DNA of 50,791 nt from Bacteroidaceae bacterium. Lineage in GTDB: Bacteria; Bacteroidota; Bacteroidia; Bacteroidales; Bacteroidaceae. The position numbers were made by a program, and so were the translations under genes. Shown here piece after piece: positions 4,474 to 12,671 of this stretch. Location: NCBI GenBank assembly GCA_017651315.1, contig JAGCDE010000028.1, forward strand, positions 1 through 50,791. Direction: 5' to 3'. The notes under the pieces were generated by a model. That model worked only from the letters and a program-made list of their open reading frames with translations. It was not told the DNA's origin and searched no databases. Numbering within the stretch: the first letter of the stretch is position 1; the number at the start of each line of letters is the position of its first letter.

Positions 4474-4593
4474 TTACATACCTGACCGGTCAAAAGGTAT
4501 AACCATCGGAACCTGATTATTCTGGTTCTGATTATTCTGCTGCTGATTATTATCGTTCAGCACAGCGGTCATATTCTTGAGTCCGATAAACAT
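4474..4593 (-). CDS. Gln/Asn-rich leader peptide of glnK-amtB (39 aa)
   Basis: A 39-residue ORF lies between a -7 box and an intrinsic terminator in front of glnK. Residues 13-27 are NDNNQQQNNQNQNNQ: eight Asn and six Gln in fifteen positions, all Gln as CAG. The tail reads VPMVIPFDRSGM. An internal ATG at 4572 (residue 8) would keep the Gln/Asn run. The tail is shared with a second leader at 12561-12671 (QVxMVxPFxR), which argues that it is a real translated ORF. Inferred role: ribosome stalling on the Gln/Asn codons when charged tRNA is scarce favours an antiterminator and lets glnK-amtB be transcribed. A sensing arrest peptide is an alternative, because residues after the run are conserved too. 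Confidence 0.82.
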   Translation of the reverse strand: MFIGLKNMTAVLNDNNQQQNNQNQNNQVPMVIPFDRSGM

Positions 4594-4622
4594 AAACTGC
4601 TATCTTGTTTCAATTTCTGCCG

Positions 4623-4630
4623 CAAAGGTA
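4623..4630 (-). promoter_or_regulatory. -7 box of the glnK-amtB leader transcript
   Basis: The minus strand reads TACCTTTG, a perfect TAnnTTTG element, about 30 bases before the leader ATG at 4593. No good -33 element at 19 bases is seen. The same relative placement occurs before the purF leader. Confidence 0.7.
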
Positions 4631-4802
4631 ATCACTTTTTGAATACATTGTTCACAAAAACAATAAAAAATTATCATTTTAACACATTCACCCTAATTTC
4701 AATATCCATTTGTTCAATTTATCTCAATAATAACCAGCATTATGCAAAATCTTAGAATCTGTTTTGATTTGTTCCGTAAAGAAAATCATGGAAACAAATC
4801 CT

Positions 4803-4810
4803 TATATTTG
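4803..4810 (+). promoter_or_regulatory. -7 box of the large CotH gene
   Basis: TATATTTG, a perfect Bacteroidetes -7 element, 26 bases before the ATG at 4837. The region 4640-4800 between this promoter and the divergent glnK leader promoter is A/T-rich and I see no other structure in it. Confidence 0.65.
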
Positions 4811-4836
4811 TTGCTTATTAGGAAACTCACCTGATT

Positions 4837-11088: not shown

Positions 11089-11091
11089 AAT

Positions 11092-12474
11092 TCAGCTTTT
11101 GTGATTGTAAAGGTTTGTGGGATAGTCGCCGTTAAAGCAGGCTGTACAGAGTTCGCATCGGCCCATATCCCTGCCCGATGCCTTGTAGAGTGATTCAAGT
11201 GACAGGTAATACAATGAGTCCGCGCCTATGTAGTCGCGAATCTCCTCAACTGTATGGTTAGAGCCTATGAGCTCCTCCGATGTACCTGTATCTACCCCGT
11301 AATAACAGGGATATGCGTATTTGGGGCTTGCAATACACACGTGGACCTCAGTAGCCCCCGCCTCACGCAACATGCCGACTATACGGCGTGACGTGGTGCC
11401 GCGCACTATGGAATCGTCAATAAGAATCACACGCTTTCCGTTCACAATGCTGCGCACAGGCGACAGTTTCATCCTGACACCCTTGTCACGCATCTCCTGC
11501 GTAGGCTGGATGAACGTGCGCCCCACATACTTGTTCTTGAGCAGGCCCATCTCGTAAGGTATCCCGCTGGCCTCGGCATAACCCATGGCGGCGCTCAGAC
11601 TTGAATCGGGCACACCCACCACGATATCGGCGTCAACGGGATGCTCCTCATATAGCAGACGCCCCGACAACTTACGGAACGAGTGCACGTTACAACCCTC
11701 AATATCGCTGTCAGGACGTGCAAAATAGATATACTCCATCACGCACATACGGTGACTGCGGAGCTTGGAATAGTCATTGGAGCGTATGCCGTGATGGTCA
11801 ATCGTTATTATCTCCCCGGGATTCACGTCACGTATAAACTCCGCGCCTATCGCGTCGAATGCGCAAGTCTCGCTCGCCACCACATACCCTTCGCCGAGCT
11901 TTGCTACCGAAAGAGGATGGAATCCGTACTTGTCACGGCACGCGTAGATTCGGTTGGGAGTCATTATCACCAATGAGAATGCACCCTCAATCATGTTCAG
12001 GGCATTGATAAGGTTGATTATGCGGTCCTCCTCGGTAGGGTCCTTCTTGATGAGATGTGCAAACAGCTCGCTGTCCGATGTAGTCTGCAGCAGACTGCCG
12101 CGACGCTCCAGATACATACGCAGCTCACGGGAGTTGATGATATTCCCGTTATGTGCGATAGCGAAATTTCCGGTATAGTGATGGAACGTAAACGGCTGTA
12201 TGTTCTCCAGTCCGCCCACATTGGTGGTGGGATAGCGAACATGGCCTATAGCAATATTACCGGTCAGTTCATCCAGATGCCTGGAGCCGAAAATCTCAAT
12301 CACCAGACCGGCACCCTTGTGCAGATGGAACTGCCCGTCGGCATCGGCCGATACTATTCCGCACCCCTGCTGACCGCGGTGCTGCAGGCTGTGAAGCGCA
12401 TAATAGGCATACTGTGCGGCGTTATCCACCCCGTAAATGCCAAACACTCCGCATTCGTGATGCAACTCTTCCAT
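11092..12474 (-). CDS. purF: Amidophosphoribosyltransferase PurF
   Basis: The 460-residue protein catalyses the first committed step of purine synthesis: PRPP plus glutamine to phosphoribosylamine. It starts MEELHHECGVFGIYG; the Cys at residue 8 is the nucleophile of class II glutamine amidotransferases, exposed after propeptide removal. The PRPP loop VILIDDSIVRGTT is near residue 345. Cysteines in RMCVMEY, YPCYYG and CELCTACF fit the four ligands of the Bacillus-type 4Fe-4S cluster. The longer frame from 12519 would begin inside the terminator, so the start at 12474 is chosen. It leads the purF-pyrG operon, behind a leader peptide and attenuator-like terminator, in addition to any allosteric control by purine nucleotides. 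Confidence 0.96.
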   Translation of the reverse strand: MEELHHECGVFGIYGVDNAAQYAYYALHSLQHRGQQGCGIVSADADGQFHLHKGAGLVIEIFGSRHLDELTGNIAIGHVRYPTTNVGGLENIQPFTFHHYTGNFAIAHNGNIINSRELRMYLERRGSLLQTTSDSELFAHLIKKDPTEEDRIINLINALNMIEGAFSLVIMTPNRIYACRDKYGFHPLSVAKLGEGYVVASETCAFDAIGAEFIRDVNPGEIITIDHHGIRSNDYSKLRSHRMCVMEYIYFARPDSDIEGCNVHSFRKLSGRLLYEEHPVDADIVVGVPDSSLSAAMGYAEASGIPYEMGLLKNKYVGRTFIQPTQEMRDKGVRMKLSPVRSIVNGKRVILIDDSIVRGTTSRRIVGMLREAGATEVHVCIASPKYAYPCYYGVDTGTSEELIGSNHTVEEIRDYIGADSLYYLSLESLYKASGRDMGRCELCTACFNGDYPTNLYNHKS

Positions 12475-12506
12475 AACCCCTGTTTCCGTTTTGTCTGTTT
12501 TTAAAC

Positions 12507-12535
12507 AAAAAAAGACCAATCACTTTGACCGGTCT
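12507..12535 (-). terminator. Intrinsic terminator in the purF-pyrG leader (attenuator)
   Basis: On the minus strand a 10-bp stem (AGACCGGTCA with TGATTGGTCT, two G-U pairs, 3-base loop AAG) runs into seven T. It lies between the leader-peptide stop (12561-12563) and the purF ATG at 12474. The 5' arm part CCGGTCA (forward 12526-12532) can instead pair over 7 bases with TGGCCGG (12573-12579) in the last codons of the leader ORF, which would prevent the terminator. This matches the glnK leader. Confidence 0.87.
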
Positions 12536-12560
12536 GTTCTGTTCCTAAAATCCCGAATGA

Positions 12561-12671
12561 TTAGCTTTCCCGCCGGCCAAAAGGAGTAACCATCCGAACC
12601 TGATTATTATTCTGGTTCTGATTCCGGTTATTCTGATTATTATCGGTTATATAATCCAACCCTTTTGCCAT
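12561..12671 (-). CDS. Gln/Asn-rich leader peptide of purF-pyrG (36 aa)
   Basis: A 36-residue ORF starts MAKGLDYIT and has DNNQNNRNQNQNNNQ at residues 10-24, with nine Asn and four Gln (all CAG), then VRMVTPFGRRES. The ATG at 12671 is chosen because an in-frame ATG at 12710 lies upstream of the -7 box and would not be transcribed. The Gln/Asn run and the QVxMVxPFxR tail match the glnK leader peptide at 4474-4593. The position between promoter and terminator, and the fact that both downstream enzymes use glutamine, point to attenuation sensing glutamine or asparagine supply. The nucleotide block CCTTTTGGCCGG in the tail doubles as the candidate antiterminator arm. Confidence 0.83.
   Translation of the reverse strand: MAKGLDYITDNNQNNRNQNQNNNQVRMVTPFGRRES

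Follow-up and report, generated by a model that had tools for sequence, protein, structure and literature searches.

Leader ORFs with asparagine and glutamine codon runs and intrinsic terminators: a putative attenuator family upstream of nitrogen genes in Bacteroidales

The window analysed here, a stretch of 50,791 nucleotides from a Bacteroidaceae bacterium, carries two leaders on its minus strand, one 5' of glnK-amtB and the other 5' of purF-pyrG, each combining a promoter-like box, a run of Asn/Gln codons and an intrinsic terminator with a 5' arm (T5) complementary to a CCTTTTGRCCGG block. From comparison with leaders in related genomes, we consider it highly probable that both belong to a family of ribosome-mediated transcription attenuators answering to the charging of Asn and Gln tRNAs. 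Alongside the ORFs, codon runs, promoter-like boxes, covarying terminators, target genes and what appears to be RNA-level conservation of the block, all of which can be read in the sequence, we propose a transcription start, translation, stalling, antitermination and a direction of response. The transcript would begin just upstream, and a ribosome would translate the short ORF with its dense Asn/Gln run. At low charging of Asn-tRNA or Gln-tRNA the ribosome would stall in the run, leaving the downstream block, with its CCRG core, free to pair with T5, and RNA polymerase would read through; at adequate charging the ribosome would arrive at the stop codon and cover the block, and the terminator would form. 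Taken jointly, Asn and Gln charging would report the amide-nitrogen pool.

Two leaders in the window

The features of both loci, with the evidence for each in brackets, are as follows.

4623..4630, minus strand: leader 1, -7 promoter-like box TACCTTTG (box position and family-wide shuffle test)
4474..4593, minus strand: leader 1, ORF of 39 aa, MFIGLKNMTAVLNDNNQQQNNQNQNNQVPMVIPFDRSGM (relatives in the genus)
4513..4557, minus strand: leader 1, Asn/Gln codon run
4484..4491, minus strand: leader 1, block GACCGGTC, candidate antiterminator arm within the end of the ORF (complementary to T5; best register among slides)
4419..4445, minus strand: leader 1, intrinsic terminator, T5 4445-4434, T3 4430-4419, U-run to 4414 (family covariation)
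4017..4364, minus strand: glnK (P-II) (PF00543)
2745..3989, minus strand: amtB, ammonium transporter (PF00909, TIGR00836)
12695..12702, minus strand: leader 2, -7 promoter-like box TAATTTTG (family-wide shuffle test)
12561..12671, minus strand: leader 2, ORF of 36 aa, MAKGLDYITDNNQNNRNQNQNNNQVRMVTPFGRRES (resembles relatives' asnB leaders)
12600..12641, minus strand: leader 2, Asn/Gln codon run
12573..12578, minus strand: leader 2, block GGCCGG, candidate antiterminator arm
12513..12535, minus strand: leader 2, intrinsic terminator, T5 12535-12526, T3 12522-12513, U-run to 12507
11092..12474, minus strand: purF, amidophosphoribosyltransferase (TIGR01134, 518.9 bits, cut-off 350)
9478..11088, minus strand: pyrG, CTP synthase, 3 nt after purF (TIGR00337)

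The ATG at 12671 (MAKGLDYITDNNQ...), rather than that at 12710, is most likely the start of leader 2, because the TAnnTTTG box at 12702-12695 falls between the two positions and because many asnB leaders in relatives begin with MAKGL or similar.

The window has 1725 stop-to-stop frames between 15 and 120 codons long, of which exactly two, the leaders, hold at least 8 Asn/Gln per 15 codons, with 14 and 13 against 7 for the next best frame, and 20 mononucleotide-shuffled windows yielded a single such frame in all. Both leaders have the short ORF with a run of regulatory codons that characterizes leader-peptide attenuation. The common QVxMVxPFxR tail and CCTTTTG[A/G]CCGG DNA that a sequence-only reading of the window had described were found again in both when the coordinates were rechecked. 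This DNA pattern has two exact matches in the 2.69 Mb assembly (83% complete), both at the window leaders, and the reversed control pattern has one; the peptide tail is alike in the two window leaders, variable within the genus and different elsewhere.

Codon runs and promoter-like boxes

The 70 distinct densest 15-codon runs of the leaders contain 501 Asn and 318 Gln codons, with both residues in every run. The family had been introduced as glutamine-responsive; the notion of one attenuator family stands, and the Gln-only label is too narrow, since the runs feature Asn no less than Gln. Asn is written AAT in 419 of the 501 cases, compared with 82 of 279 in eleven window genes. Where genus rows differ in run length, they do so by multiples of three. 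The motif TAnnTTTG, which we take to be the Bacteroidetes -7 promoter motif, lies 20-130 nt before the run in 86 of 93 leaders (mononucleotide shuffles: mean 6.7, maximum 13).

Leaders precede ammonium and glutamine genes across the family

A covariance model (R1) built on 22 leaders of glnK, asnB and purF, including one from genome G288, was run with stricter filters on 399 genomes of the family and gave 83 strong matches (E<=1e-4), a set that includes the R1 training leaders and their orthologues. Targets were assigned by reading the next genes for each match, with representative proteins confirmed by NCBIfam or Pfam, and ammonium or glutamine genes took 82 of the 83 (81 with the gene in view, 1 at a contig end), as expected of attenuators whose regulatory amino acid fits the controlled pathway. 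The glnK/amtB cluster accounts for 37, a figure that includes leaders with an intervening TorF-like gene, the contig-end locus L067 with its target out of view, and the disrupted cluster of genome G024; asnB accounts for 20, including the broken G024 copy, followed by glmS (12), pyrG (5), gltB (5), glnN (2) and purF (1). The 24 matches before glmS, pyrG, gltB and glnN concern gene classes outside the R1 training set. The sole exception, L335, is a degenerate Asn/Gln leader that has kept block and terminator and precedes a circularly permuted ATP-grasp gene.

These targets bear out the earlier proposal of a nitrogen/glutamine regulon under one attenuator family, and the check for random, nitrogen-unrelated targets turned up that single gene. 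Of the further members suggested at the time, gltB, glutamine synthetase (glnN, GSIII) and asnB were recovered, and carA, guaA and nadE occur at none of the 83 strong matches; glmS and pyrG are leader-bearing targets beyond that first list.

Among R1 matches weaker than 1e-4, seven of those examined look real (L322, L337-L341, L348) and twelve have no Asn/Gln ORF (L323, L342-L347, L349, L350, L359-L361). Asn/Gln leaders precede glnK at 3 of the 20 loci L098-L117 (L098, L101, L104) and at 3 of 80 named glnK loci (L192, L193, L194). The asnB gene of genome G027 (L161, L351) follows a leader whose run is Asn-only and in which the block is absent. At L192:5090-5200, in a g30 genome, a second, tandem hairpin (GGCTGGCTTCC...GGAGGCCAGCC) stands between the Asn/Gln leader and asnB.

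Distribution in the genus and the purF placement

With up to 3 mismatches, the tail pattern matches in 23 of 37 genomes of the genus (reversed control pattern, 0), and copies with a visible next gene lie 5' of glnK(-amtB) or of asnB. The pattern is missing from 14 genus genomes, of which 13 also lack any match to glnK (E<=0.001) and to asnB (E<=1e-60); the remaining one, G288, has glnK and asnB, a different Asn/Gln leader and, between leader and glnK, a gene that we take to be TorF-like. At lower divergence (1 mismatch) the pattern was found in 16 of 301 family genomes, 4 of them outside the genus, with no Asn/Gln frame at the loci of these four. In 393 genomes of the order, 42 match with 3 mismatches, at which level the control columns, too, show many matches; the order-wide loci scanned for Asn/Gln showed no leader at 9 of 15 and one unrelated frame, L050, at 8 of 15.

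None of the other genus genomes inspected has a tail-type leader 5' of purF. A purF match occurs in 23 of them, and at all seven purF starts that could be located the gene lies directly behind the end of another frame, with no Asn/Gln leader; in four loci (L312, L313, L315, L318) the frame just 5' is glmS. The purF placement is thus peculiar to this genome among those inspected, and relatives have that leader before asnB. A search of the window's own genome found neither asnB nor GSIII glnN in the 83% complete assembly. Leader 2 would therefore be, most simply, an asnB leader with new genes behind it, because the corresponding leader of relatives precedes asnB and the own genome shows none, the loss of asnB being either real or an effect of the assembly.

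Three further observations concern loci of the genus. At L097 (G024:C40) both leaders look intact, although a premature stop interrupts asnB and amtB is truncated. The asnB leader of G243 (L091) is broken in frame within the Asn/Gln run and retains its terminator, through mutation or assembly error. In three genomes (L095:7480-7718, L096, L097) another short ORF (EYGFxYALEVGFNPKRN...LSPAGE) precedes glnN (GSIII); it has its own terminator-like GGCTGGCCC...GGACTGGCC with a complementary CCAGCC and no Asn/Gln run, and is possibly an attenuator of another kind.

A second taxonomic family

Such leaders are present in a second taxonomic family as well. A search of 20 genomes of this family, f19, with a second model, R2, yielded 19 matches at E<=1e-5; 18 of these have an Asn-containing leader (L408 being without). 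Their targets are amtB (8), glnN (6) and a TorF-like gene (3), with one match at a contig end (L402); the three leaders before the TorF-like gene are weak, with 5 Asn/Gln in 12 and a block farther from the stop than the scanned range. In genome G527, amtB, the asnB that follows it, and glnN were confirmed by Pfam. Applied to the order, R2 is noisy, with matches at E<=0.01 in 198 of 295 genomes, and among loci L363-L391 from that run only L363 has a convincing Asn/Gln leader.

Terminator and candidate antiterminator pairing

All 34 aligned leaders have a fully paired intrinsic terminator between ORF and structural gene (272 of 272 cells); 19 of the cells are doubly changed, a value reached in none of 500 shuffles. 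Leaders L325-L328 and L351 failed the strict terminator rule and are absent from this set of 34 and from the folding set of 84.

The pairing between block and T5 gave a more mixed picture. Its four core pairs form in 34 of 34 leaders, and 86.0% of cells pair overall compared with at most 44.9% when the block is slid. Doubly changed cells number 4, a count attained by 1 of 500 shuffles, and they fall in 2 pairs, attained by 3 of 500. The percentage paired and the covariation score were equalled by 469 and 483 of 500 shuffles, respectively, and in the first 22 leaders no measure of covariation rose above shuffles. A hairpin at the run end (GAACC/GGTTC) is suggestive, but its covariation is likewise not above shuffles.

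The geometry agrees with an arm that a ribosome at the stop codon would mask and a ribosome stalled in the run would leave free, both in the window leaders and in most others. The block was defined here as the final CCRG that follows the run at -40..+30 relative to the stop, a choice that favours nearby sites. By this definition 83 of 84 leaders have their block start at -20..+15, and its median distance past the last Asn/Gln codon of the chosen window is 26 nt. At L324, before gltB, the block starts 35 nt before the stop, out of the masked range, and none of the five gltB leaders has a block within 25 nt of the stop. The block of L324-L328 sits well ahead of the stop, within a hairpin loop of the GTCCAT/ATGGAC type, and would therefore stay uncovered when a ribosome terminates.

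In folding predictions, the median probability of T5 pairing was 0.52 with a mid-run ribosome and 0.15 with a terminating one, and pairing was lower with the terminating ribosome in 73 of 84 leaders, partly owing to the shorter free RNA. The mid-run value was no better than the 0.55 obtained with shuffled upstream sequence, so co-transcriptional folding adds no independent support; for the purF leader the predicted mid-run pairing is weak (0.27). The suggestion that the block is the antiterminator arm finds support, short of proof, in the core complementarity and the best register; the covariation statistics are mixed, and folding does no better than shuffled sequence.

The block as RNA arm and the alternative readings

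An alternative to tRNA charging is nascent-chain arrest, in which the PFxR tail or another peptide motif would be sensed in the exit tunnel and codons would not be counted. PFxR had been put forward as such an element, along with a comparison of synonymous and nonsynonymous change. In 96 leader rows, near-identical ones included, an NCCRGY block within 25 nt of the stop is read in frame 0 in 28, in frame 1 in 47 and in frame 2 in 3, and lies after the stop in 10; it was not found within that distance in the other 8 (L091, L322, L324-L328, L351). Over distinct genus versions, the summed pairwise differences at its four codons are 31 nonsynonymous and 0 synonymous, the residues seen being P/S/L, F/L, D/G and R/Q, so that the peptide is not conserved as the sensing segment of an arrest peptide is. 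PFxR as a nascent-chain sensor was rejected on these two counts. Even noncoding blocks (L101, L194, L329) are complementary to the terminator. Its occurrence in three frames or after the stop, with nonsynonymous codon differences only, points to an RNA arm under RNA-level rather than peptide-level constraint.

A different peptide motif speaks for nascent-chain arrest. Of 23 paralogous leaders, 20 carry the pattern [YF]NCLxN[QK]MNDKxN (for example L306, L319, L321, L348, L354), with residues kept while codons change synonymously; by target, the counts are 12 of 12 for glmS, plus 1 of 1 for glmS in g30, 3 of 5 for pyrG, 2 of 3 for asnB of g30 and 2 of 2 for glnN of g30. Pairwise comparison of 17 distinct DNA versions gives a pS of 0.68 and a pN of 0.04, the latter biased low because the selecting regex fixes most residues; under a less strict regex, most positions of the motif are still shared by 18 of 19 versions. 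This looks like peptide-level selection that counting of Asn and Gln alone would not explain. The two window leaders lack the motif, however, and with PFxR set aside we regard arrest as an improbable account of the family.

Direct binding, by a riboswitch, a T-box or an antiterminator protein with the ORF incidental, would sit well with the strong RNA-level conservation of block and terminator. Against it, a scan of the window found no Rfam family at gathering score, riboswitch and T-box families included; the Asn/Gln run recurs in leaders that are otherwise little alike as peptides, and its length varies by whole codons among genus rows. We rate this reading as less probable still than arrest.

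That the ORFs encode Asn/Gln-rich small proteins with no control over the next gene is hardly credible. Most do have their own promoter-like box and terminator, but nitrogen genes are the assigned targets of 82 of 83 strong matches, tails differ between lineages and the block matches the terminator even where noncoding.

Direction of response and meaning

Two further points count against attenuation in answer to Asn/Gln tRNA charging. GlmS, PurF and PyrG use up glutamine, and why a cell short of glutamine should make more of them is not obvious. Prevotella ruminicola raises glnK, amtB, asnB, glnN and others at plentiful ammonium (PMC5552732), although no Asn/Gln leader was seen in the named Prevotella glnK loci examined.

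The attenuation reading offers a concrete and testable mechanism, a single sensing logic across much of the nitrogen pathway, and its paralogous leaders form a natural set for telling RNA pairing from peptide sensing. More tentatively, and with doubt outweighing confidence, an Asn+Gln attenuator cassette might carry most of the global nitrogen control, spanning ammonium uptake, GS, GOGAT, AsnB, GlmS, PurF and PyrG, and be reusable by new genes, as when purF-pyrG would have taken over the asnB leader in this genome, with one branch adding a YNCLxNxMNDKxN chain sensor.

Comparison with known systems

Glutamine riboswitches comprise the glnA and downstream-peptide motifs, and T-boxes for Asn or Gln tRNA are known from Firmicutes. 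Lopatovskaya et al. (2010) reportedly made a comparative study of attenuators. Glutamine riboswitches, a class mentioned in PMC8632094, are likewise leader RNAs controlling glutamine-related genes; here, by contrast, the window has no Rfam match, and an Asn/Gln ORF with a terminator stands in place of evidence for an aptamer. A T-box would likewise read tRNA charging and control a terminator, whereas in the present leaders, again with no Rfam match in the window, reading appears to pass through a translated ORF.

Within Bacteroidetes, leader-peptide attenuation has likewise been proposed, for candidates in the transcriptomes of Flavobacterium psychrophilum and B. thetaiotaomicron (PMC9723704, PMC7366714), although parts of those main texts mention neither a Gln/Asn leader nor a nitrogen regulon. 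In the main texts, as available, of PMC1262725 and PMC2965389 neither "glutamine" nor "asparagine" appears as a word. Neither Gln/Asn leader-peptide attenuators nor such a regulon were found in the open-access literature (titles and abstract starts; few subscription journals, no bioRxiv), and the leaders described here are the first Asn/Gln leader-peptide attenuators that we could find within it.

The closest relatives in design are the trp, his and ilv leader-peptide attenuators of Proteobacteria and Actinobacteria, which likewise combine an ORF of regulatory codons, an intrinsic terminator and a candidate alternative antiterminator; classical attenuators share short conserved complementary stretches (PMC1262725, in part), as the present leaders do. 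The Bacteroidales leaders differ in mixing Asn with Gln codons and in their targets, namely genes for ammonium uptake, for assimilation and for glutamine amidotransferases, spread across many operons.
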